A stretch of 64,000 nucleotides of DNA from NCBI RefSeq assembly GCF_000376785.1, contig NZ_AQXX01000122.1, positions 1 to 64,000 on the forward strand, written 5' to 3'. Both the position numbers and the translations under genes were made by a program. Positions 8,707 through 21,953 of the stretch are shown piece after piece. Every line of letters starts with the position of its first letter. Positions within the stretch are counted from its first letter, which is position 1. The notes under the pieces were generated by a model. It ran no database searches. It saw only the letters and a list, made by a program, of their open reading frames with translations, and was not told the DNA's origin. The DNA is from Hahella ganghwensis DSM 17046 (GTDB lineage: Bacteria > Pseudomonadota > Gammaproteobacteria > Pseudomonadales > Oleiphilaceae).

Positions 8707-11616
8707 ATGGCACATCATCGTAAATTCTTCATGTTGGCAGTCATGTTCTACTGCCTGGATCTCTCAGCCACTACTATTGACTATGATATTGTCTACGTCA
8801 GACAGCCTAGGCATGGTGACTCCGAGCACATTAAATGGCCGGAGGCAGCCTCACCGGGCCGCGTAGAAATGGGATCGGATCTGGTTCTGTTGCATCCGGA
8901 TGGATCAGAAGAAGTGCTGGTGGATACGGAAGTCGGAGCTGTTACAGATCCCAATGTATCGTTAGACGGCAAGTGGGTTTATTACAGTTATTTTCACGAT
9001 GTCTCCTCAGAGAAACTTAATAGACAACGATATGGTCTTTCAGAAGGCGGGTCTGATATCTATAAGATCAATCTGGAAACTCGGGAAATTGTCAGATTGA
9101 CGCACCAGGAGTTTACGCCGAATACGGGTAGCGGACACTGGAATGAGAAAAACCCAGTAAATCCAACCGGCGGATACAACTACTTGGGGTATGGAATTCT
9201 CAATACTGGTCCTGCGCCGATTGCGGGTAATAAGATAATTTTCACAAGTAACAGGAATGGTTTTAAGCCAACCAAAAGTTACTCCAACCCTACCATGCAG
9301 CTTTATGTGATGGATGAGGATGGTAAAAATGTGACACCCATCGCGCCAATGACACTTGGGTCTGCTCTGCATCCTATTTCCCTGACAGACGGAAGAGTTA
9401 TATTCAGCAGTTACGAGTCTCAGGGGTTACGAGATGAACGTTTATGGGGTCTATGGTCCATCTATCCTGATGGTCGGCATTGGGAACCTGTTGTCAGTGC
9501 TTTCTCACATGCTGCGGTATTCCATTTCGCAGCGGAAACCAGTGATGGGCAAATAGTCGTCGAAGACTATTACAACAAGAACAATTTTGGATTTGGTGCA
9601 CTCTATGCCTTTCCTATAGAAGCTGGTTATGGACAGCCAAAATTCCACAGCGCTGTGAGCGAAGAAAATCCAGAAATCGCGCGAACCGTGGATGGAGATC
9701 TAAGATCCTTTACAATACCGTTCTCACCAAAAGGTATCTATTCTCTTACGCCTTCCGCATCTTCTTCAGATCGGGCAGCGACACCGGGACAAGGTAAGTA
9801 CACGCACCCGGCTGCTGCACCTGATAATGATTTACTGGTGGTATGGTCTGACGGCCCGGTCAATACGCTAAAAAGACCCTCGCCATATCCGGCTGTAGAC
9901 TCAGGGATCTATATGATTGATAGAATGGATCCCGTGATAGATTCCCAGCAACTGGTCCTGATTAAAAATGATCCTAATTACAATGAAGCCTGGCCAAGAG
10001 CAGTTGTTCCCTATAAGCGTATCTATGGAATTGATGAGCCGAGGTCAATTGCGTGGCTACCCAATAAAGGAGAGGAGCATGCTCAGCTTCCTGAGGGGAC
10101 AGCGTATGGCTTAATAGGGACTTCAAGCTTTTATAATAGGGAAACCTCTCCTGGTGGAGAGGATAATGAAGGAAGTTTTGACGGTTTGGATGCGTTTAAC
10201 ACCAGAAGCAACAATCAAAGTCCGAACTGGGTATTGCAGGGTGCTGATGCTGGTAAATATTCAAATGATGATATCTGGGGGGTACGCATTCTTGCTATGG
10301 AGCCATTTTCCCATAAGTCTTATGGGCCGGGATCTGATCGGAAACGTTCAGCTTTCTTTTTCAATCATGTTGGAGAAAGGTTGAGGATACTCGGGGAAAT
10401 TCCCCTGAAAAAATACAATCTCGATGGATCATTGGTTATGGACCCAACCGGAGAACCGGATACGAGCTTTCTGGCCAAGATCCCTGCAGATACGCCATTT
10501 ACTTTTCAGACAATTGATAAAAATGGCAGCGTCCTGAATATGGCGCAAACCTGGCACCAGGTTCGACCTGGTGAAGTGCGGACTGACTGCGGAGGCTGTC
10601 ACGCGCATAGTAAAGAGCCTGTGAAGTTTGAGCAGACGGTAGCAGCATCAGCAAGCTATCAAGTATGGGATTTAACCAAATCAACCCCATTGCTGACCCA
10701 GGAACAGGATGGCACACCGAGAATTTATGAAAAACCAGAGCCTGTAGTAAATGTTGAGTTCTACAAAGACATCAGGCCGATTCTGCAGAACAAATGTGTT
10801 TCTTGTCATAACTCGGTGGGATATAACGGAGCTCCCGCACAGCTTGCTCTGGAGGATGTCTCAATTCCTGAAGGTAAAGTATTGCCAAATGATTATTCAC
10901 GGTTGTGCTCAGATTCATACGCTAGTTGGGGAATCCCATCTGTGGTGAGAATAGGGACTGATGAACGTCCGGTCTGGAGGCAATCCAATGCCAGCAGATA
11001 CGTCAGATTGTTTCAGAGCCGACGTAGTCTGTTGATATGGAAATTATTTGGGGAGCGTCTTGATGGCTGGACTAATGATGACTTTCCGACCGAAGAAGTG
11101 CCTGGTGATCCTGATACCTTACCGGAAGGTGCTGGCGCCAGTGGAGCCGACATCGATTTTACTGGCGACATCATGCCTCCAGGACACCCTTTAACGGCAG
11201 ATGAAAAGCTGGCATTTGTTCGCTGGATTGACCTTGGATGCCCGATTGATACTGCCAGCAACACTGATAAAGATGGGTATGGATGGTTTCTTGATGAAAC
11301 AAGGCCGGCACTGACTGTAACCTATCCTGCGCCTGGTGTGTCTACTGAACCGCTGACACGTATATTGGTTGGTGTGTCTGATGCTTACACTGGTGTCGAT
11401 CATTCATCTCTTGAGATATATGCAGACTTTGAGATTGAAGAAGTGGTACCTGGCAGCTCTTTAAAGCATAAATTTACTCAAATCGCTGATGGTGTGTATG
11501 AAATGAAGTTTGCGAGCAGGGTAGTGAGCCTCCAGAACGGAACCTTGTATGTGTCAGTGAAGGATAAGCAGGGTAATATCACCAGGGTAGAAAGGTCTTT
11601 CTCTATCATTCCATGA
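8707..11616 (+). CDS. HzsA-like exported protein with two CxxCH haem motifs
   Basis: This is a 969-residue protein with an N-terminal Sec-type signal (about residues 1-21). The N-terminal half looks like a WD40/PD40-type propeller (ITFSSNRNG-like repeats, for example KIIFTSNRNGFKPT) and resembles the hydrazine synthase alpha-subunit family. Two c-type haem motifs are seen at residues 628-632 (CGGCH) and 697-701 (CVSCH), the second in a cytochrome-like context after IRPILQNK. A C-terminal domain from about residue 880 is Ig-like (PALTVTYPAPGVS onwards). It is presumably periplasmic and needs the cytochrome c maturation system. There is no sign of a real hydrazine synthase complex, so HzsA names the fold only. 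Its role beside polysaccharide genes is unknown. Confidence 0.65.
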   Translation: MAHHRKFFMLAVMFYCLDLSATTIDYDIVYVRQPRHGDSEHIKWPEAASPGRVEMGSDLVLLHPDGSEEVLVDTEVGAVTDPNVSLDGKWVYYSYFHDVSSEKLNRQRYGLSEGGSDIYKINLETREIVRLTHQEFTPNTGSGHWNEKNPVNPTGGYNYLGYGILNTGPAPIAGNKIIFTSNRNGFKPTKSYSNPTMQLYVMDEDGKNVTPIAPMTLGSALHPISLTDGRVIFSSYESQGLRDERLWGLWSIYPDGRHWEPVVSAFSHAAVFHFAAETSDGQIVVEDYYNKNNFGFGALYAFPIEAGYGQPKFHSAVSEENPEIARTVDGDLRSFTIPFSPKGIYSLTPSASSSDRAATPGQGKYTHPAAAPDNDLLVVWSDGPVNTLKRPSPYPAVDSGIYMIDRMDPVIDSQQLVLIKNDPNYNEAWPRAVVPYKRIYGIDEPRSIAWLPNKGEEHAQLPEGTAYGLIGTSSFYNRETSPGGEDNEGSFDGLDAFNTRSNNQSPNWVLQGADAGKYSNDDIWGVRILAMEPFSHKSYGPGSDRKRSAFFFNHVGERLRILGEIPLKKYNLDGSLVMDPTGEPDTSFLAKIPADTPFTFQTIDKNGSVLNMAQTWHQVRPGEVRTDCGGCHAHSKEPVKFEQTVAASASYQVWDLTKSTPLLTQEQDGTPRIYEKPEPVVNVEFYKDIRPILQNKCVSCHNSVGYNGAPAQLALEDVSIPEGKVLPNDYSRLCSDSYASWGIPSVVRIGTDERPVWRQSNASRYVRLFQSRRSLLIWKLFGERLDGWTNDDFPTEEVPGDPDTLPEGAGASGADIDFTGDIMPPGHPLTADEKLAFVRWIDLGCPIDTASNTDKDGYGWFLDETRPALTVTYPAPGVSTEPLTRILVGVSDAYTGVDHSSLEIYADFEIEEVVPGSSLKHKFTQIADGVYEMKFASRVVSLQNGTLYVSVKDKQGNITRVERSFSIIP

Positions 11617-11636: not shown

Positions 11637-12533
11637 TCAGTCGGTTATGCCAATGACATCATACTGTTGATGTTTAAACTGATCGTAAAAAGGAGTCTTG
11701 CGGTCAACCGGCTGATTGCCTTCCAGAGGAACAAGCCATTTAAAGTTTCTTTGTTTTTCCGCTGCTTCAAATATTTCTTCAGGGGTCATGTTTTCCCTTT
11801 TTAATACGTCGGGATGCAGCTCCACTAAAACAATCATCTTACTGGCACTTTTTATAGTCTCAGAAGCCCCCTCAAAAAAGGCCTTTTCCTGGCCTTCCAC
11901 GTCAAGTTTTATTGCAATACAGTCGTGGCTTGTCAGTGCAAGATCCTTGCTCAAAGTATCAAAGGTAGTAACCTTTGTTTGATAATTGTTTGAGGTTTCT
12001 TGTGCTTGAGTGAGCGAAATATGCCCCTCGTGATCGGATGCCACGCTTTCATCGAAGTGGAAGTAGGCAGAGCCGGTGAAATTGGATATTGCCGCTTCTT
12101 GGGTCATCGCTTTTACGGGAAGGTGGGCGGCATTCAAAGCTAGAATGTCATAAGACCTTGGATTAGGCTCCACCGCGAGGATTGTACTCAGATTCTTGCA
12201 TCGGGATGCCACAAGCGCAGAAACAATCCCAATGTCTGCTCCCAGGTCGATAAAAGCGATTGAGCCCTGTTCCTGACGAAGTATCTCCAGAAAAGGATCG
12301 ATTTCATCCAGATAGTAGTTTTCCGGGCCTCGATTATACCAGAAGCACCACTGATCCCAGGGAACGTAAAAGTCCTGGTTGTCAATTCTGTGCTTGATTA
12401 AATGCCGCCCGTATCGTCCCTTAAGATGCTGGTAAAGAAAATATTTTCCCGGCGGATCATAACGCTGTATTTGGGTAATGATCCAGTTGACCGCAGAAGG
12501 AAAAAAACGCTGTTTACTCATAAGTGAATTCAT
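11637..12533 (-). CDS. FkbM-family SAM-dependent methyltransferase
   Basis: The 298-residue protein carries a class I methyltransferase core: FIDLGADIGIVSALVAS (SAM-binding glycine-rich loop), ILAVEPNPRSYDILALNA (acidic residue for the ribose) and IAIKLDVEGQEKAFFEGA, the hallmark of FkbM enzymes. FkbM proteins usually O-methylate sugars or polyketide-like acceptors. It is the last gene of the exosortase operon, 23 bases after the xrtA stop, and is convergent with the HzsA-like gene, whose stop lies about 20 bases away. A role in methylating the surface glycan is the simplest reading. Confidence 0.8.
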   Translation of the reverse strand: MNSLMSKQRFFPSAVNWIITQIQRYDPPGKYFLYQHLKGRYGRHLIKHRIDNQDFYVPWDQWCFWYNRGPENYYLDEIDPFLEILRQEQGSIAFIDLGADIGIVSALVASRCKNLSTILAVEPNPRSYDILALNAAHLPVKAMTQEAAISNFTGSAYFHFDESVASDHEGHISLTQAQETSNNYQTKVTTFDTLSKDLALTSHDCIAIKLDVEGQEKAFFEGASETIKSASKMIVLVELHPDVLKRENMTPEEIFEAAEKQRNFKWLVPLEGNQPVDRKTPFYDQFKHQQYDVIGITD

Positions 12534-12556
12534 GATCTTTTTTGGCCATCCTTCTC

Positions 12557-14086
12557 TTATTGAGTAAATGGAAGTGTCTCTGTCAGTCGGGGGTACAAGC
12601 TCTCGGCTGCCGAGATTAGTTGCTCTTGCCTATTTTGATATTCGTTATCGTCAGCTTTTACAGAAAGAGCAATAAACGCACCTTCCTGTTTTCCTGTAAA
12701 CAAAAGTTCTGCAGTCTGCCTGAGCTTGATGAGCGTTTTAGAGGATGACTGGAAGTCAGCGAGCTGGTACCAACTGAGAATAATGCGTTTTTCTCCTTCT
12801 GGAGAAGTGATCATCATCAGGGTTCCCTGCACTGAGTTTGGACCGAAGGATATGGTCTCCTGATGTATCAGACTCCACTTTTCAATGTCAAACTCTCTGT
12901 TGAGGTAGGAAACCAGTTCACCTTTGCTGCCTGTGCCGTACCAAGCCAGATAGACGTCGCAATTTTCATCCTGGTAGGGCTGGCGGGTATGCAGGGTTTG
13001 CGTCGCACCTTCAAAAACGGGATGCCATTTAGGATTAACGACCTTTGTATCCTGGATAAAATCCAGCTGAATGCTGGAAGAGCTCTCTGTTCTCTCCGCG
13101 TCGATCCAGAAATTTGCTACTGCTACCTGAATTGCCAGTAAAGACCCTATTAATAGTGCAGGCTTCTTGAACGTCTCGATATTCCAGTTAGCAGAATAAT
13201 CTATCCCTTGGCTTTTCTTCATTAGAGCCTGGCGTTTGAAGGCAGATTCCGGTTCGCGGCCGATTTCACCCATGAGTATCAGAAGAAATATGACGATGCT
13301 GAAGAAGAACCAGCCATAAATCAGGTGATCTGCACCGACGGCGTACTCCATATCGGAATAGAACGCGATAATTATAATGCCATAAACCCTGAGGATATTT
13401 GCCGCTATAGGGACTAAGAATGAAATAAGAATAAACAGCGACTTCTTCCAGAGTTTGGTGTAATTCAGGTGTGCCAGCAGACTTCCAATGACGACAGACA
13501 CAATCGTAAAGCTGATACCAGAGCAGGCCTCTGCGACAAGAAACCTGCCTTGAGGGATGTCAATGTAGAGACCGTTTCTGAAAACAGGCACAGAAGAATA
13601 ATTAAGTAATACAACTGACCACTTTGCAGCAATATCCTGAAGTGTGGGAATTAATTGTTCGCCGACAGGGATTGCGAAAACAAAGAAGAAAAGGGGGTAG
13701 AAGATAGCAAGTGCGGATCTGAGACCTATGCAAAGAAAAATGGCAAACGGAATAAAGGAGAAGGCTGCCAGATGCATTAATACGTTAATATCACCCGCTT
13801 TCCCGAAAAGATATACCAGTGAAATCAGTAGTAGAAACGTAAAAACAGAATAGGTCGGTACCGGTTTGGTCAGGACCAAATCCTCTCTTTTGCGATAAAT
13901 CAGGTATATTGCAAATGGAATAACAAATGCGCAGTGATTAAAAATCTCATTGTTCAGCCAAATAAAGGCTGCTGTATCAATGCCGGTCTGAAATGCGAGA
14001 TACCAGGCTAGGGATAGTATGATTATCAGTAAAACAAGAGGCTTGTTGCTCTTTATGTTTTCGATGAAGGTGGTTAATGCTTCCAT
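12557..14086 (-). CDS. xrtA: Exosortase A fused to an EpsI domain
   Basis: This is an integral membrane transpeptidase-like sorting enzyme for PEP-CTERM proteins. The first 290 residues form about eight membrane helices with the three expected catalytic residues: Cys188 in VAEACSG, Arg233 in NILRVYG and His254 in GADHLIYGW. After the last helix (near residue 320) comes a periplasmic EpsI-like domain (for example YLAWYGTGSKGELVSYLN), a fusion known in class A exosortases. At 509 residues it is the usual fused length. It sits fifth in a six-gene minus-strand operon. Its visible client in this window is the PEP-CTERM protein at 19120-19881. Confidence 0.93.
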   Translation of the reverse strand: MEALTTFIENIKSNKPLVLLIIILSLAWYLAFQTGIDTAAFIWLNNEIFNHCAFVIPFAIYLIYRKREDLVLTKPVPTYSVFTFLLLISLVYLFGKAGDINVLMHLAAFSFIPFAIFLCIGLRSALAIFYPLFFFVFAIPVGEQLIPTLQDIAAKWSVVLLNYSSVPVFRNGLYIDIPQGRFLVAEACSGISFTIVSVVIGSLLAHLNYTKLWKKSLFILISFLVPIAANILRVYGIIIIAFYSDMEYAVGADHLIYGWFFFSIVIFLLILMGEIGREPESAFKRQALMKKSQGIDYSANWNIETFKKPALLIGSLLAIQVAVANFWIDAERTESSSSIQLDFIQDTKVVNPKWHPVFEGATQTLHTRQPYQDENCDVYLAWYGTGSKGELVSYLNREFDIEKWSLIHQETISFGPNSVQGTLMMITSPEGEKRIILSWYQLADFQSSSKTLIKLRQTAELLFTGKQEGAFIALSVKADDNEYQNRQEQLISAAESLYPRLTETLPFTQ

Positions 14087-14129
14087 TTAATTTATAACGG
14101 CCTCTAGCAAAATCTCTGTTTCTGTTGCC

Positions 14130-15236
14130 TTAGTGGGTCTTTTCTTTGTCGAAGAATGTATTTCCCAGAAAATACTCAATAATCAGCCGCCAGGCTTTAT
14201 TGACGCTGTGGTATATCAGAACAGGGAGCGGCATCTTTAGATGGTGACCTCTTAAAAAACCCATGAATGCCGCCAGGGAATAGCTGGGAGAGCGAACAGT
14301 CGGATGGCTGGGAATTAGGAGTTGAGTGAAGATGAAATCTACTATTGGTAAAATCGGACCACTGTTTTTTTGATTAAGCAGGTTTACTACATGCTCGGGT
14401 ATTGCTGTGGAGGTAAGCCTGTTAGTGTAGCGGCAGGCATAGAATAGCTCTCTTTCGAATCCGGTGGATTCGGCAAGGTCAAGTAATTGCTGCCAGTATT
14501 CTTCGGTATTGTCTGACATGAGAAGATGGAGATCGAGCAGATCTCGGTATCCGTACTTGAATTCCTCGTTGTAGAAAAGGTGTATCAGGCTATGCAGAGT
14601 CATCGCAGGTTTGTCCAGAATCTGGTAGCCATCCTTTGTGATAACGGTATGTTCAAATAACAGATTAATGTCTGGGGCGCGAGTGGAAACCACCGGGATA
14701 ATATTATGGTGTATATCGATTAACGTTCCTCGGGTCGCATGTTTCATTGGAGGAATTTCGTGAGCCCACTGCCGATAGTATTTTTGATCGTATTCGTCCA
14801 TTTCCTCCGGCAGCCAGCCATTTAGTGACATGGTTTTCTCGATATCGCTGATAGCTGTCTTATCTACGAGAATGTCGATATCGCTGTAAGTTCTTCCAAC
14901 ACCGACCGATAGACCGGATAATGAGTAGCCGGCACCTTTCAGAAAAATGAGGTGAGAGCCAATGCCGCCGATTTGTTGTTGTAGCAATGATGCCTCGTAA
15001 TGGACCTGCTGATATTGCTTGTCTGCAATAATCTCTGCGTTTATGAGGTGATGTTGCGCATACTTATGTACCTGCTCAAAAACACCGGCTTTTCTGATTC
15101 TCTTGGCGTAACGGGCAAGTAGTTGTTGGTAACGAAGAACCAGAATGATCTGTTGCCACCGTTCTGCATCGATGGATGCGGCAGATTCTGGATGAAGAAA
15201 TAACTGTATGACGTCGCGGGCGGAAATATCAGGCAT
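14130..15236 (-). CDS. Nucleotidyltransferase-fold protein (NTP_transf_5 type)
   Basis: This 368-residue protein has the minimal nucleotidyltransferase signature: FLKGAGYSLSG followed by RTYSDIDILVDK, with the paired aspartates in the SDIDILVD segment. It fits the NTP_transf_5 family often found beside HprK-related kinase A and PqqD-like proteins. The ATG at 15234-15236 is preferred over an upstream in-frame ATG at 15299, because it overlaps the upstream stop by only eight bases and gives a family-like start (MPDISARDV). It probably transfers a nucleotide or phosphate-containing group in the same modification pathway as the HprK-like protein. The substrate is unknown. Confidence 0.75.
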   Translation of the reverse strand: MPDISARDVIQLFLHPESAASIDAERWQQIILVLRYQQLLARYAKRIRKAGVFEQVHKYAQHHLINAEIIADKQYQQVHYEASLLQQQIGGIGSHLIFLKGAGYSLSGLSVGVGRTYSDIDILVDKTAISDIEKTMSLNGWLPEEMDEYDQKYYRQWAHEIPPMKHATRGTLIDIHHNIIPVVSTRAPDINLLFEHTVITKDGYQILDKPAMTLHSLIHLFYNEEFKYGYRDLLDLHLLMSDNTEEYWQQLLDLAESTGFERELFYACRYTNRLTSTAIPEHVVNLLNQKNSGPILPIVDFIFTQLLIPSHPTVRSPSYSLAAFMGFLRGHHLKMPLPVLIYHSVNKAWRLIIEYFLGNTFFDKEKTH

Positions 15237-16101
15237 TGTCGATAATGTCTTGTTCCAGAAATTCCATGACTTCTTCAAGATTGCTATAAAAGATCTCAAA
15301 GGATTCGGCTGATTCTATAACTTTCGTAAGTGTATTGAACCCTGAGACACCATTCACGCCAAAATTGAAGGCATTCTCAGCGAACTGCATAAATCCCTGT
15401 GTCTTATTGAGCTGATAGATTTCGAGCTCTCTTCCAGCTCTATAACTTGGGAAGACAATTGCTACGATTCTGGCATCCACTTCCTTTTGTTGCCAGCTTG
15501 CCTCTGGCGGCGATAAGTGAACGACATTACCTTTGTGAGTGTTGTGGGCAACAGTGGAAAAACGTCCTTGAGAAAACCAGGACTTTGCTAAATCAATGGA
15601 ATGATTTTTTAGGCAGATCGGACGTACAAACGGCGTTACGACATTACTGTTTGGGTTGATCAAGGCCATCTCGTCTGAAAGTAGGCGCCATCCCTTAAAT
15701 GCCAGATAGGCTGTCAGAGTGCTTTTACCTGAGCCGGGAGGGGCGGGAAACAAAATGGCCTTGTCATCTTTGGCGAGTACTGCCGAATGAGCTATGACGT
15801 ATTGCATCTCGTTAGAAGCAATGGTCCAGTTCATTCCCCACTCAAGTAATGCGTAGCCTTGTTCCTGTCTGAGTGGTTTGAAAGGTTCTTTCTGATCGCA
15901 AAAGAAGCGAGCCTGTGGCTTGAAATAGCGTCTGAGCCCGGAGCCATTGTTCAGCGAAAGGGTATAGTCTGTTACCGGCGTTGGCTCTGAATCGATTAGC
16001 CCCGGATACATCTTGAGTAAGTTTTGTTCAATGAGCTTGAGGTCGGTATTTACTCTGAATGAAAAAGGGTAAAGGTTCAGGCAATAGTTCTGCAAGGCCA
16101 T
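15229..16101 (-). CDS. HprK-related kinase A
   Basis: This 290-residue protein has a Walker A motif at about residues 118-130 (FPAPPGSGKSTLTAYL) followed by GWRLLSDEMALI, matching the HPr kinase/phosphorylase C-terminal domain. The N-terminal HPr-kinase domain is absent and replaced by a different region. This is the layout of the HPr-rel-A family, which travels with a PqqD-like protein and a nucleotidyltransferase rather than with HPr. It should phosphorylate, or otherwise act with nucleotide on, a protein or peptide; the target is not established. It lies 43 bases after pqqD-like and overlaps the next gene. Confidence 0.85.
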   Translation of the reverse strand: MALQNYCLNLYPFSFRVNTDLKLIEQNLLKMYPGLIDSEPTPVTDYTLSLNNGSGLRRYFKPQARFFCDQKEPFKPLRQEQGYALLEWGMNWTIASNEMQYVIAHSAVLAKDDKAILFPAPPGSGKSTLTAYLAFKGWRLLSDEMALINPNSNVVTPFVRPICLKNHSIDLAKSWFSQGRFSTVAHNTHKGNVVHLSPPEASWQQKEVDARIVAIVFPSYRAGRELEIYQLNKTQGFMQFAENAFNFGVNGVSGFNTLTKVIESAESFEIFYSNLEEVMEFLEQDIIDNA

Positions 16102-16144
16102 CAGAAACTTCTTATTAAATTCGGTGAAAGTTGAACCGGGAATA

Positions 16145-16375
16145 CTAATCGCAGGCGTTAATGAAACCCTTTTCCACCAAGCCTTTCAAGGGGTTATGAA
16201 ACTTTTCAGAGTCACTTTGTTTGAAATAGACGGCGAGGGCCTCTTCGATCTGCTCTAACCTTAGCTCTATACCGATGGTTTCTCCAGTGTGAGCGCTAAA
16301 AAACACACATCCAGATCCATCAGAAAAGGGGTGGATTGCCACCCCTTTTGCCAGTTTGCAGCCTGATAACGACAT
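16145..16375 (-). CDS. HPr-rel-A system PqqD-family chaperone
   Basis: This is a short (76-residue) winged-helix PqqD-like protein. The core VAIHPFSDGSGCVFFSAHTGETIGI resembles the PqqD beta-hairpin region that binds precursor peptides in RiPP pathways. It is followed by helices ending in the LKGLVEKGFI segment. It starts three bases after the Tat-signal gene stop, so the two are co-transcribed. In known systems PqqD-like proteins hand a precursor peptide to a modifying enzyme; here the likely partner is the HprK-like protein immediately downstream. A strong hairpin lies inside this gene at 16324-16349. Confidence 0.8.
   Translation of the reverse strand: MSLSGCKLAKGVAIHPFSDGSGCVFFSAHTGETIGIELRLEQIEEALAVYFKQSDSEKFHNPLKGLVEKGFINACD
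16324..16349 (-). terminator. Terminator-like hairpin inside the pqqD-like gene
   Basis: Read on the minus strand, AAAAGGGGTGG, a CAAT loop and CCACCCCTTTT form a perfect 11-bp stem with a four-base loop and a short (four-base) U-tract. It starts 26 bases after the pqqD ATG. It could act as a partial terminator or mRNA-stability element that lowers expression of the downstream enzymes relative to the upstream Tat-protein gene. The U-tract is short, so full termination is unlikely. The bases also encode protein, so selection on codons is an alternative. Confidence 0.45.
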
Positions 16376-16378
16376 TAA

Positions 16379-17089
16379 CTAGGAAACGTCACAGCTGGCA
16401 GATTCTGCGTCACAGTTCTGGATGACATACTCCAATGATGACGCCAGTGCGTAGGAGTTGGTCAAAGCTTTGTCGCAAAGATACTGGGCAAAAGCCTCAA
16501 CTGAACCAAAGACGTTGGTGATTGGGTAGTAGATGCCACGCGATCCGTGATACAGCGCGTTCATGTACATACATACCATATATAGGTTGACATTATGTGG
16601 ACCGGAAAGGTCAAAATAATTGTCGCCGTCCTTGGTTTTGATGTAGTCAGGATTCTGGCTGCCATCAAGTTCAATTAGAGAGTTATCTATAATTGATCCT
16701 GAATCGCCTTCGGCTCCCTTGGCGACTTCATAGAGACTAAGGTCAAAGTAGTGGTTGTCCTTTGACTTAACTTTGCAGAAGCCCGAATAGTTGTTTTCAC
16801 TCAATGGTTCACAACCGAACACATTCTTGAAGGAAAGGTTCTTGTCGCCAGACGGAAAGTGATTTTTCCAGTAACCTGGGGATCTGAGCTGAATTGTGTA
16901 ACCATCAGCCCAGTCAGAACCGTGACCGGATGCGACGATTGATTGGGTAATGCCCCCGCCACCAGCCCATACGGATTTGGTGGGAATAGTTGCGAGTACT
17001 GCACCGGCAGAGGCGCGTTGTAAAAACTGGCGTCTGGAGGATTTGCCTACAGCAGACTCAGCAATTTTATCCTGCTTATTCGATTCCAT
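16379..17089 (-). CDS. Tat-signal exported protein of the exosortase operon, unknown function
   Basis: I do not recognise a catalytic family. The 236-residue protein starts with a twin-arginine signal (SSRRQFLQRASAGAVLATI, cleavage probably after SVWA near residue 42), so it should be exported folded. The mature part includes the motif SPGYWKNHF, which recurs in various bacterial surface proteins. Six cysteines are spread across the mature chain, two of them close to the C-terminus (NCDAESASCDVS). It is the first gene of the operon, three bases before pqqD-like. That place is the one usually held by the substrate or precursor, so it is the best candidate for the modified protein. Confidence 0.6.
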   Translation of the reverse strand: MESNKQDKIAESAVGKSSRRQFLQRASAGAVLATIPTKSVWAGGGGITQSIVASGHGSDWADGYTIQLRSPGYWKNHFPSGDKNLSFKNVFGCEPLSENNYSGFCKVKSKDNHYFDLSLYEVAKGAEGDSGSIIDNSLIELDGSQNPDYIKTKDGDNYFDLSGPHNVNLYMVCMYMNALYHGSRGIYYPITNVFGSVEAFAQYLCDKALTNSYALASSLEYVIQNCDAESASCDVS

Positions 17090-19077: not shown

Positions 19078-19119
19078 TTGTTAATGGCGTATAACTACAC
19101 CTTGTTAAGGAGCAATTCG

Positions 19120-19881
19120 ATGTTCAAGAAAAGTGCGTTAAACGCTGCTGGAGTAGCGACCTTGTGCGCGGCATTCTCATTCCAAGCCACCGCTGGCTTC
19201 CTGGATTTCCAAGTTGACGAGACCCCATACGGCGGTACTGTTCTGACTGCAGACAAGCTGAATGGTGGATACCAGGAAAACCTGACTTTTGACGGTGCAG
19301 GCGGTTTCACAATTTCCGCTTACGCAACTTTCGGTCAGCTGTTTGGTAACGACGGTACTACTGATCTGGGCGCTAGCTCTCAAATTGGTGACTCTTACCA
19401 GATTTATGCGAAGTTTTACTCTGGCGGTACTGTTTCTCCAGTAGCTCCTGGTATTACTGAGTTCACTGGTTCTGGTGGTTCTGTTGAGATCTATCTGGAT
19501 GCCAACAACGACACTACCGGTACCCTGGGCGCTACAGCACTTGATCCCATCCTGATGTCTAACGATGGCGATGACTTGTTGCTGGCTGCCACTACTGACT
19601 TGGTATACGGTACTGGTTTGTTGACTGGTGTTGGTGGTTTCTTTGATCTTTTGTTTGATAACTTTGCTTTGACTGCTGACGGTGCGGACTACTTCGTATC
19701 TCCAGATCCTTTCTACATCAAAGTAAACGTAGACGGCGATTTCGATACATTCGAATTGACCGGTACTCAAGTTGTAACTGGTGACATAAGCGCGGTATTC
19801 GTACCTGAGCCTGCTTCTCTGGCTATCTTGGGTGTTGCAGCAGCAGGTTTAGGATTTAGTGCACGTCGCAAGCGCGCATAA
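19120..19881 (+). CDS. PEP-CTERM sorting-domain protein (exosortase substrate)
   Basis: This is a secreted protein of about 253 residues with a Sec signal (MFKKSALNAAGVATLCAAFSF, cleavage probably after ATA). The mature chain is glycine- and aspartate-rich and devoid of cysteine. The C-terminus is a textbook PEP-CTERM tail: VPEPASLAILGVAAAGLGF followed by a basic cluster (SARRKRA). Exosortase cuts at the PEP motif and releases the protein to the surface or to an extracellular matrix. The ATG at 19120 is chosen because AAGGAG stands seven bases upstream; an in-frame TTG at 19078 lies in the promoter. Codon use (many GGT, GCT, CTG) looks like that of a highly expressed gene. It is flanked by a sigma-54 promoter and a strong terminator. 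Confidence 0.93.
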   Translation: MFKKSALNAAGVATLCAAFSFQATAGFLDFQVDETPYGGTVLTADKLNGGYQENLTFDGAGGFTISAYATFGQLFGNDGTTDLGASSQIGDSYQIYAKFYSGGTVSPVAPGITEFTGSGGSVEIYLDANNDTTGTLGATALDPILMSNDGDDLLLAATTDLVYGTGLLTGVGGFFDLLFDNFALTADGADYFVSPDPFYIKVNVDGDFDTFELTGTQVVTGDISAVFVPEPASLAILGVAAAGLGFSARRKRA

Positions 19882-19902
19882 TCTTAGGAATGCTCCTAAA
19901 AC

Positions 19903-19932
19903 AAAAAAAGCAGCCTTATGGCTGCTTTTTTT
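19903..19932 (+). terminator. Intrinsic terminator after the PEP-CTERM gene
   Basis: GCAGCC, a TTAT loop and GGCTGC form a six-bp GC-rich stem that is extended by A/T pairs and followed by seven T residues. It starts about 20 bases after the stop codon. It makes the PEP-CTERM gene a single-gene unit and can work in both directions. Confidence 0.85.
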
Positions 19933-19983
19933 ATGCGTCGATAAAGATACTAGGAAAGGCTTGAAGAGCTAGCTGATCTGTCT

Positions 19984-20799
19984 TTAACTCTCTTTAAGCT
20001 GACTCAGGATTGAGCGCTGGATACCAGACTCAAGTGCTTTAAAGCCAGGCTTCAGGCTTTTAAGGAAGATTTCCTGGTTGATGTAGTAGGGCGCGCGTTG
20101 CCCGTGATACTCAATTGCAGGTCCTATTTGTTCAAACTGGATACCTATTAAAGCCATGCTTCTGGCCAGTCTAGGTTCCATCATCACGAAAGCGTGCTCG
20201 ATACCTTTTTCCAGCGCAAGTCCAGCGGCAGCCAGATAAAGCCCAATTGAGATAAACGGAAAGCACCGGAGCTCTTCTTCTGAATAGGTGATCTCGTTGA
20301 TTACCCCCGTGCCGGCCCCCCCATACTTGTCACTTTTTCTGCGTCTAAATTCGGCTAGTACTGCCAGCCGTGAAATTTCACAAATTCTGTTGCTTGGAAA
20401 ACTCTCTGGTCTCAGGGAGCTGTCCTGGTAGGCGTGTGAGCAGTACTTTTGGATAGGGAGTTTCTCTTCTGGCTGTGTTGGGCAAACGACTCTTACACAA
20501 CCTGCATACCTGTCTGTGGGGATATGTCTGATCAGGCAATGAGAAGAATATAAATCACAATCATCTATTTCAAGTCCGTCCGGACGCGGGGGCTCGAACT
20601 TGAGCTCTTCACAGTAGACTTGGTGGCGAATTTGAAAAACGTGTTGTCGATGGAGTTCTGTTTTTGCAATGACAGGTGCAAGAAACTTATCAAAATGCTC
20701 TGAGATTGTTGTTGCTTCCTTGTTGACTCTGTTGGCTACCATACCGCCAAATAGCTTTCCGCCAATTCTGCTTTGTCCCAGTTTCTTTATCACGCTCAT
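19984..20799 (-). CDS. PEP-CTERM/exosortase-associated acyltransferase
   Basis: This 271-residue protein belongs to the GNAT/autoinducer-synthase-like family TIGR03694. The diagnostic core is FQIRHQVYCEELKFEPP, then YAGCVRVVCP, and RICEISRLAVLAEFRRR. These proteins co-occur with exosortase A and are thought to transfer an acyl group, from acyl-CoA or acyl-ACP, to an unknown acceptor. The amphipathic HAFVMMEPRLARSMALIGIQFEQIG segment is part of the fold. It has no real link to homoserine-lactone signalling beyond fold. It is divergent from the ThiF-like gene, and the pair may share a pathway. Confidence 0.88.
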   Translation of the reverse strand: MSVIKKLGQSRIGGKLFGGMVANRVNKEATTISEHFDKFLAPVIAKTELHRQHVFQIRHQVYCEELKFEPPRPDGLEIDDCDLYSSHCLIRHIPTDRYAGCVRVVCPTQPEEKLPIQKYCSHAYQDSSLRPESFPSNRICEISRLAVLAEFRRRKSDKYGGAGTGVINEITYSEEELRCFPFISIGLYLAAAGLALEKGIEHAFVMMEPRLARSMALIGIQFEQIGPAIEYHGQRAPYYINQEIFLKSLKPGFKALESGIQRSILSQLKES

Positions 20800-21092
20800 A
20801 TTTGGTGCTCTTTTATCCCAGGCGATACAAGTTTCCGTTCAATCCAGGCTATATGACATATCATCAGTATAGCGCTATAAATAGAGGAGTGTTAGAAAGG
20901 AGATTGCCACAATAGTGGGTGAAAATAATGCAATTAAAAGTAAGTTTTAAGAAAAATATATAAATTATCGATATCTAAGACGCGGCTAGGCTACAATATC
21001 TATAACTCCATGATTTTCAAGCTCTTAGTAAAAGAGTAATCATAACAGCTTTAGTGCAAAATATTGTAAAAAGGATCGGATTCTTAAGCAAA
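20800..21092. other. Divergent intergenic region, acyltransferase / ThiF-like gene
   Basis: About 290 AT-rich bases, with no clear operator, promoter pair or RNA gene. I looked for a sigma-54 element on the minus strand and found none. Confidence 0.4.
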
Positions 21093-21953
21093 ATGTATAA
21101 CTACGAAGCTGCAATATCGAGAAATATCGGTTGGCTTTCAGAAAGAGAGCAGCATGTCCTGAAAGATAAACGGGTTGCAATTGCCGGGATGGGGGGCGTT
21201 GGCGGTGCCCATCTGGAAACCCTTACAAGGTTGGGTATTTCAAAGTTTCAATTGTCCGATTTTGATGTGTTTGAAGTGCATAACTTCAATCGCCAGGCGG
21301 GGGCTGCCATGAGCACGGTAGGGCAGCCTAAGCTGGACGTTATGGTAAAACGAGCTTTGGATATCAATCCTCAGTTGGAGGTTCAGTATTACGATACGGG
21401 AATAAACGAAAAAAACGTTGATGCGTTTTTGGAAGGGGTGGACCTATATGTTGATAGCCTTGATTTCTTTGCTTTAAGTGCTCGAAAGTTGGTTTTTCGA
21501 AAATGCCAGGAAAAAGGTATACCGGCAATAACTGCTGCTCCAATGGGAATGGGATGTGCGTTTCTGGCATTTCTACCTGGTGGAATGACATTTGATGAAT
21601 ATTTCAGGCTTGATGGTTATTCAGAAGAAGATCAACTTATACGCTTCCTGATTGGCTTGTCACCTGCCGTGCTTCAAAAAAGTTACCTTGTTGATCCAAG
21701 TAGAGCGAACTTTCAAGAAAAGAAGGGGCCTTCCACTCCGATGGCTGTTGATTTGTGTGCAGGTATTGCAGGGACGAATGCTGTCAAAATTCTACTAGGG
21801 CGCGGCAAGGTTGTAGTCGCTCCATATGGGCTACATTTTGACGCCTACAAAAATAAAATGGTGAAGACTTGGCGCCCGGGTGGGAATGCGAATATTTTGC
21901 AAAGGATTGCGTTTGTCGTAGCAAAGCGCATTCTCACTAGAAAAAAACGCTAG
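21093..21953 (+). CDS. ThiF-family E1-like adenylyltransferase
   Basis: This protein of about 286 residues has the E1 Rossmann signature VAIAGMGGVGGAHLETLTRLG, a nucleotide-binding FDVFEVHNFNRQ strand and a long C-terminal region. It lacks the paired CxxC zinc sites of MoeB and HesA-type E1s, and no cysteine is obviously placed as the catalytic one; a single conserved-looking one is in VDLCAGIAG. E1-like enzymes adenylate a C-terminal glycine or a carboxylate. Here no ubiquitin-like or sulfur-carrier protein is adjacent. The ATG at 21093 (MYNYEAA) is chosen; an in-frame GTG at 21054 is also possible. Its neighbours suggest a small-molecule or protein-tagging step in the exosortase system. Confidence 0.7.
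   Translation: MYNYEAAISRNIGWLSEREQHVLKDKRVAIAGMGGVGGAHLETLTRLGISKFQLSDFDVFEVHNFNRQAGAAMSTVGQPKLDVMVKRALDINPQLEVQYYDTGINEKNVDAFLEGVDLYVDSLDFFALSARKLVFRKCQEKGIPAITAAPMGMGCAFLAFLPGGMTFDEYFRLDGYSEEDQLIRFLIGLSPAVLQKSYLVDPSRANFQEKKGPSTPMAVDLCAGIAGTNAVKILLGRGKVVVAPYGLHFDAYKNKMVKTWRPGGNANILQRIAFVVAKRILTRKKR

Follow-up and report, generated by a model that had tools for sequence, protein, structure and literature searches.

We analyzed a 64,000-nucleotide stretch of the Hahella ganghwensis DSM 17046 genome (contig NZ_AQXX01000122.1, positions 1 to 64,000, forward strand), hereafter referred to as the window; the genome that holds it is 6.6 Mb in size. Six genes at 11637-17089 encode, in gene order, a protein with a twin-arginine translocation (Tat) signal, a PqqD-like protein (a putative RRE, the recognition element of ribosomally synthesized and post-translationally modified peptides, or RiPPs), an HprK-related kinase, a nucleotidyltransferase, exosortase A (XrtA), and an FkbM-family methyltransferase (Table 1). 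An earlier note on this DNA had described them as six minus-strand genes with short gaps or overlaps, and this layout was verified: all six open reading frames (ORFs) are present in the ORF list of the window, with successive spacings of 3 bases, 43 bases, an 8-base overlap, 43 bases, and 23 bases. For the nucleotidyltransferase, we adopted the ATG at 15236 as the start over the TTG at 15299 of the ORF list. A locus from Hahella sp. CCB-MM4 (L032) is identical to the window in the kind and order of the six genes. The proteins encoded by the first four genes share 84, 80, 83, and 74% identity between the two, while XrtA shares 70% and FkbM 65%. The ratio of nonsynonymous to synonymous substitution rates (dN/dS) was computable for pqqD alone (0.145), with dS saturated in the other genes.

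Table 1. Coordinates in the window of the six-gene locus and of a nearby PEP-CTERM gene.
Gene product	Position	Strand	Length (aa)	Basis and remarks
Tat-signal protein, candidate substrate/precursor	16379..17089	-	236	Twin arginine at residues 19-20; predicted signal region ~1-42
PqqD-like (RRE) protein, probable leader-binding partner	16145..16375	-	76	Position, profile comparison, predicted fold
HprK-related kinase A (TIGR04352)	15229..16101	-	290	306.5 bits (cut-off 200)
NTP_transf_5 nucleotidyltransferase (PF14907)	14130..15236	-	368	125 bits (cut-off 31)
Exosortase A (XrtA), EpsI-type C-terminal domain	12557..14086	-		279 bits (cut-off 208); outside conserved cassette
FkbM-family methyltransferase	11637..12533	-		Family-model matches; outside conserved cassette
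PepA-type PEP-CTERM protein	19078..19881	+		NF033554, 191.5 bits (cut-off 80); TIGR02595, 21.3 bits (cut-off 16)

The conserved unit comprises the first four genes, which encode the Tat-signal protein, the PqqD-like protein, the HprK-related kinase A, and the NTP_transf_5 enzyme. We collected 49 kinase loci (the window, 8 contigs from named genomes, and 40 loci from a phylum sample) and searched the 398 whole genomes of that sample with profiles for the kinase, nucleotidyltransferase, and Tat families. The six-gene unit of the earlier note held in part: its first four genes are conserved together, while XrtA and FkbM adjoin them in only 2 of the 49 loci, the window and L032. The kinase exceeded its cut-off in 61 of the 398 genomes, 60 of which also encode a protein matching one of two Tat profiles (A5 or A4). 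The sole genome without such a match (G189) is 57% complete, and its kinase gene is cut by a contig end. Among the other 337 genomes, five matched the Tat profiles, all weakly (E = 2e-6 to 5e-4), and two of these matches (G064 and G092) were Tat genes of a sister system described below. Since proteins from these loci went into the profiles, some of which find their own members, the weight of the result rests on location and specificity.

The Tat gene adjoins the kinase gene in 54 of the 60 testable genomes, on the same strand in 53 and as an inverted Tat-PqqD pair in one (G137), bearing out the grouping made in the earlier note. We also looked for operons that keep the other genes and have no Tat gene, which that note had named as grounds for dropping the idea; the idea withstood this check. 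The remaining six genomes all encode the Tat protein elsewhere, and in four of them (G125, G069, G268, and G022) the kinase is separate and the Tat-PqqD pair is found at another genome site. These counts come from a final census covering every kinase genome, in which 53 had a same-strand Tat gene beside the kinase, 1 an inverted one, and 7 no nearby match, including the untestable G189. Earlier search rounds over the 49 loci had recovered a Tat gene in 35 by iterative profile search and in 42 by a rule combining twin arginine and hydrophobicity, at least one of the latter being false. In L052, an ORF preceding the kinase had been picked up as Tat-like but was rejected as false, since it resembles a cold-shock protein by eye; that genome carries its Tat gene in L094. 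A PqqD profile match falls between the Tat and kinase genes in 51 of the 53 same-strand loci, at a permissive threshold and with a profile built from members, and the nucleotidyltransferase gene lies near the kinase in 42 of the 49 loci. One genome (G185) carries a second Tat-PqqD pair (L141, 1530-2323, minus strand) on a contig other than that of its kinase locus.

The Tat proteins fall into two classes, A (24 rows, profile A5) and B (18 rows including the window protein, profile A4), and these classes agree with the kinase phylogeny. On a kinase tree of 75 rows (47 with class A, 19 with class B, and 9 from the sister system), Tat class requires two changes, which is the minimum, compared with a mean of 25.4 when labels were shuffled; in six rows the Tat gene is not adjacent, and the label was taken from the Tat gene located at another site in the same genome. 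Support for a single origin of class B on this tree is low (69/64). Two further weak profile matches were set aside. The class B match in G342, a long protein that shares a GYWK motif but has no Tat signal, is not a member, and the class A match in G227 (L143) is of the Tat type, but its long mature part is unrelated.

The twin arginine is invariant in both classes (24/24 class A rows and 18/18 class B rows). The window protein matches the Tat-signal model TIGR01409 (17.6 bits; cut-off, 16.7) and its genome (G000) encodes TatC (248 bits), making it a predicted Tat substrate. The proteins span 82 to 287 aa. Beyond the signal, they showed no convincing Pfam or NCBIfam family, with scattered weak matches in one to three members, and no PDB sequence matched at E = 0.1. 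Class A mature parts are variable and carry a C-terminal motif, [ST]C[WFYLI]xS[FLI] (in its wider form, [ST]CxxS[FLIM]). Of the 49 class A proteins scored, 48 have it, the exception being that of L041, and a median of three residues lies beyond it; two of the 49 come from one genome, and some were found by a profile that includes the motif. Across the 49 loci, 1,570 ORFs reach a length of 100 aa; the pattern occurs in 25 of them, and 24 of these 25 are class A Tat proteins. Its serine, invariant in the 24 rows, is a candidate acceptor. The minimal class A precursor, encoded in L028 (2685-2933, minus strand), is an 82-aa protein consisting of a signal and about 20 further residues that end in SCLDSFNGL, and would be suited to a simple in vitro test.

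The class B mature part differs from that of class A. Ser50 and Ser54, just past its signal, are each conserved in 90% or more of the rows. When a class B profile containing no class A rows was run against the 398 genomes, it returned 13 weak matches (E = 2.5e-7 to 9e-4), 11 of which were class A Tat proteins encoded in kinase genomes. These 11 matches all lie over the N-terminal part and include the signal, and five of them end by position 75 of 214. What the two classes have in common, judging from these alignments, is the N-terminal part with the Tat signal. Redox enzyme maturation proteins (REMPs) are Tat proofreading chaperones, and such common ground is what one might see if the PqqD-like protein were a REMP-like chaperone and the kinase reversibly phosphorylated it or the signal, with no permanent modification of the Tat protein. 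This arrangement would leave both the nucleotidyltransferase and the invariant C-terminal serine motif of class A unexplained, and we regard it as quite improbable.

We asked what kind of protein the PqqD-like gene encodes. The window protein matched no NCBIfam family, even at E up to 10, and no PqqD model in Pfam, where a single irrelevant sub-threshold match was returned. Among 28 proteins at the same place in other loci, 19 match TIGR04353 (PqqD-family peptide chaperone), while weak matches were seen to HvfC (2/28) and ScmD (1/28). The predicted fold of the window protein had a mean predicted local distance difference test (pLDDT) score of 81, and the top four structures found for it in the PDB are all leader-bound B1 proteins of lasso-peptide systems, TbiB1 being the nearest, at modest E values (0.07 to 0.21, none at E <= 0.001). 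The profile of the 28 relatives yielded one weak PDB match, which is the lasso protein TfuB1 (E = 0.029). Based on fold prediction and gene order, an RRE-type protein thus appears to be encoded beside a conserved precursor, which would place the cassette among RiPP pathways in the wide sense.

Catalytic residues are conserved in both enzymes. In the kinase, His105, the P-loop (G123..K126-S-T128), and Asp143-Glu144 are invariant across 31 sequences. Compared by eye, they resemble the His-Lys-Asp-Asp set described for lasso kinases (PMC9266682), with Glu at the position of the presumed second Asp. In the nucleotidyltransferase, Lys100-Gly101, the DxD pair Asp119/Asp121, and Asp174 are invariant across 28 sequences. 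A single 706-aa ORF in L078 that joins the HprK and nucleotidyltransferase regions was not counted as evidence, because it comes from a fragmented assembly with 8% contamination and because overlap between these two genes is frequent.

Lasso-peptide clusters combine similar enzymes. According to PMC9266682, PadeK phosphorylates the C-terminal serine of the paeninodin precursor, and in the pseudomycoidin cluster the nucleotidyltransferase homologue PsmN is required for a hexose to be attached to the phosphate; nucleotidylation is an alternative. The lasso clusters share with the cassette an HPr-kinase-like enzyme (PadeK, PsmK), a nucleotidyltransferase homologue (PsmN), and the PqqD-like B1 protein, PadeK, PsmK, and PsmN being set beside the cassette enzymes as analogs. 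They also have their acceptor serine at the C terminus, where the candidate serine of class A lies. Unlike the cassette, they include a leader peptidase (B2) and a cyclase (C), which family scans did not place among the six genes, and their substrates are not Tat-signal proteins of the size described above.

A sister system has a RiPP-like layout. Radical S-adenosylmethionine (SAM)/SPASM enzymes, PqqD proteins, and small precursors together form a standard RiPP pathway layout. In families f39 and f59, where the kinase falls below its cut-off, we found a five-gene layout. Small Cys-rich Tat precursors, one or two per locus, are encoded together with a radical SAM/SPASM enzyme bearing the motif CNExCxHC, a PqqD protein, and an HprK-like kinase, and an NTP_transf_5 gene runs on the opposite strand. 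In L146, for example, the PqqD protein matches PF05402 (3.7e-10) and the kinase reaches 69 bits with TIGR04352 (cut-off, 200). Of 23 sister loci, which were hand-chosen from sub-cut-off kinase matches and weak Tat matches, 13 contain all five genes (L142, L146, L147, L149, L150, L155-L157, L159, L160, L162, L165, and L166), one with its nucleotidyltransferase cut by a contig end. The others comprise one locus without the nucleotidyltransferase (L158), six cut by contig ends (L144 and L153 being from one genome), and three without a Tat or radical SAM match (L148, L161, and L164); L167, an extra stretch beside L159, was left out of the count. The sister system has the look of a separate class of RiPPs in which the leader is a Tat signal. 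Because of its radical SAM/SPASM layout, and because the predicted PqqD fold is RRE-like, the RiPP-like logic that the earlier note had proposed for the kinase/nucleotidyltransferase branch is supported.

Two of the loci without a Tat or radical SAM match hold HprK-like and NTP_transf_5 pairs (L148, 6175-7655; L161, 4491-6571). By eye, the surroundings in L148 are exopolysaccharide-like, and a 70-aa ORF there starts like a Tat signal with Lys-Arg. A PqqD-HprK fusion in L148, plausible by eye, was unsupported (domain E = 0.05).

The earlier note had gone further, proposing that exosortase and FkbM handle export and surface display of the modified protein. Shared strand and tight spacing in the window and L032 would suit a pathway that exosortase A and FkbM complete by putting the Tat protein on the surface. 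So would the 25 of 25 kinase genomes of eight families (f1, f9, f11, f17, f23, f28, f45, and f78) that encode an exosortase over cut-off, at most 60 kb from the kinase in eight of them, the window among these. Against this stand the adjacency of XrtA and FkbM to the cassette in just the two Hahella loci of 49, the 31 of 61 kinase genomes with no exosortase over cut-off, and the window Tat protein itself, in which family-model scans found no PEP-CTERM match. The signal sits instead on the PepA-type protein (Table 1), which by its model matches is the evident client of the window's exosortase. Because the Tat protein carries no PEP-CTERM signal, exosortase is unlikely to be its exporter; with the genomic context added, we discarded exosortase as its handler, and we consider completion of the pathway by exosortase A and FkbM very improbable. 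We take XrtA and FkbM to be neighbors of the cassette in Hahella with separate jobs.

Other genes were noted in this part of the window. The PepA-type gene adjoins a gene for a PEP-CTERM/exosortase-associated acyltransferase (TIGR03694, 255 bits; the pair spans 19078-20799). Also in the exosortase neighborhood, a ThiF/E1-like protein (21054-21953, plus strand; PRK08223, 422 bits, cut-off 266) is encoded next to a large membrane-transporter-like ORF, the latter named by eye only. Converging on the operon is a gene for a 969-aa protein (8707-11616, plus strand) with a partial match to the hydrazine synthase alpha subunit (NF052339, 52 bits, cut-off 800; PF18582) and additional weak cytochrome-type matches.

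The cassette belongs to exopolysaccharide settings, and its association with exosortase and exopolysaccharide loci is a looser one. An exosortase over cut-off is encoded in 30 of the 61 kinase genomes versus 37 of the 337 others, counts that carry no correction for kinship, and outside the eight families named above it occurs in 5 of 36 kinase genomes from the other thirteen. We scanned 84 of 131 selected neighboring ORFs from 15 loci, 14 of them in genomes without an exosortase over cut-off. Matches at E <= 1e-10 included TIGR03087 (12; best E = 5e-158), TIGR03088 (8; best E = 2e-168), and TIGR03108 (8; best E = 0), all XrtA/PEP-CTERM-type exopolysaccharide families, with counts that contain cross-matches among related glycosyltransferases. 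It is this co-occurrence of kinase and exosortase above chance, together with the XrtA-type neighbors, that places the cassette in exopolysaccharide settings. A TIGR03088-type glycosyltransferase gene lies near the kinase in L042, L045, L061, L064, L067, L073, L077, and L089; the L042 copy is over cut-off, and the other seven were placed by 46 to 66% identity to it. In its genomic surroundings, the cassette resembles the PEP-CTERM/exosortase (EpsH) system, from which it differs in that the PEP-CTERM signal is missing from its Tat protein and that it is also found without an exosortase. In a term search, neither HPr nor nucleotidyltransferase turned up in the text of the 2006 paper on PEP-CTERM and exosortase (PMC1569441).

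Given such neighbors, the kinase and nucleotidyltransferase could instead make a sugar-phosphate or nucleotide-sugar for exopolysaccharide, with the Tat protein as a periplasmic helper and the PqqD-like protein as a signal-peptide chaperone. The exopolysaccharide families in the 15 loci are consistent with this idea. It is at odds with the general behavior of PqqD-like proteins, which typically bind peptides, and with the radical SAM/SPASM enzyme of the sister system, which fits peptide modification. Nor would a free-sugar pathway explain why the Tat-PqqD pairing persists away from the kinase. We therefore judge this alternative unlikely.

We propose that the four genes probably encode a protein-maturation cassette, a reading that draws on gene context and on analogy with lasso and RiPP pathways. 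The Tat-signal protein would be synthesized as a precursor, and the PqqD-like protein would recognize the conserved Tat-signal region at its N terminus, much as RREs recognize leaders, and deliver it to the kinase. The HprK-related kinase would then phosphorylate a hydroxyl residue of the precursor, probably serine. Candidate acceptors are the invariant C-terminal serine in class A and a serine after the signal in class B, which includes the window protein. The NTP_transf_5 enzyme would add a nucleotidyl or sugar group onto that phosphate. By occupying the signal, the PqqD-like protein may delay export until modification is complete. TatABC would export the folded, modified protein, whose probable workplace is the cell surface or the exopolysaccharide.

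Several observations weigh against this maturation model. Two of the kinase genomes (G081 and G214) carry the Tat gene elsewhere and separate from PqqD, two others (G126 and G340) have no PqqD match between the Tat and kinase genes, and in 7 of the 49 loci the nucleotidyltransferase was not seen near the kinase, three of these being at contig ends. The HprK-nucleotidyltransferase pairs of L148 and L161, both below the kinase cut-off, have no Tat match nearby. The 61 kinase genomes are not independent, falling into 21 families of which three have 8 to 11 members. For the window PqqD-like protein, which matches no family model, the link to the TIGR04353 relatives is weak (hhalign E = 2e-4, with a probability of just 46%). 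The nearest PDB relatives of the kinase, found by profile search, are HPr kinase/phosphorylase structures at a modest E of 3e-4, and the nucleotidyltransferase had no PDB relative at E = 0.01. Because the mature parts of classes A and B have no recognizable relationship and the C-terminal motif occurs in 0 of 18 class B proteins, one common acceptor is not established. An SxxxS pattern is present in 18 of 18 class B proteins when sought in a loose 55-residue window, with some matches inside the signal (L049 and L063). The segment before the twin arginine is long (median of 31 residues in 42 proteins), a length perhaps inflated by taking the first possible start codon in many cases. Structure prediction for the Tat protein from a seven-row alignment reached a pLDDT of 38 and was kept out of the fold searches.

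Taking the sister loci into account, we put forward a broader interpretation more tentatively, at somewhat under an even chance. In a widespread superfamily of maturation systems, the Tat signal would serve as a RiPP leader that the PqqD-like protein reads, the kinase and NTP_transf_5 enzyme would attach a phospho-nucleotidyl or phospho-sugar group to the protein, and the Tat pathway would export it in folded form. The HPr-rel-A branch, to which the window locus belongs, would act on proteins of about 80 to 290 aa in exopolysaccharide settings, and the radical SAM branch on Tat precursors that are short and rich in Cys. Modification would then come before export, under the control of the very sequence that targets the protein for export. 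Bufferins offer a partial parallel: a Sec signal stands in the leader's place, and the authors suggest that a partner masks the signal until modification is done (PMC12452194; cf. PMC12710340). Like these and other MNIO RiPPs with DUF2063/HvfC partners, the cassette would use an export signal in the leader role, and its PqqD-like proteins include the weak HvfC matches noted above. The two differ in that bufferins combine Sec with oxidative MNIO enzymes acting mostly on Cys, while here Tat is combined with a kinase and a nucleotidyltransferase. SynChlorMet also pairs an HprK-like with a PqqD-like protein (ScmC and ScmD), and weak matches to both models were seen; the ScmC match here scores 18.8 bits against a cut-off of 125, and ScmD was matched by a single PqqD-like protein. 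Among the literature matches listed, we found no RiPP with a Tat signal as its leader.

RiPP-like maturation is a known kind of process, and the cassette is already catalogued by model names as HPr-rel-A (NCBIfam TIGR04352 and TIGR04353), to which it conforms in the kinase score and in the TIGR04353 matches of most PqqD relatives. Those names give no substrate, no paper matched them in the literature searched, and that literature yielded no substrate or reaction for the system. Here a Tat-signal family and an NTP_transf_5 enzyme are tied to it. Within the reach of these searches, three things are new: a Tat-signal family dedicated to the system, the motif that may hold the acceptor, and the sister branch with radical SAM enzymes. 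The co-occurring Tat family gives HPr-rel-A a concrete candidate substrate for testing, and class A adds a residue as the possible acceptor. The Tat pathway normally carries folded or cofactor-bearing proteins. If the maturation model is true, RiPP recognition would be joined to Tat export, giving a reason for modification to occur before export, and lasso-type phosphorylation and phospho-glycosylation would gain a counterpart on protein-sized substrates. The cassette would then represent a little-noticed form of protein maturation that uses an export signal as its handle, and it may provide a new way into the study of exopolysaccharide-associated surface proteins.

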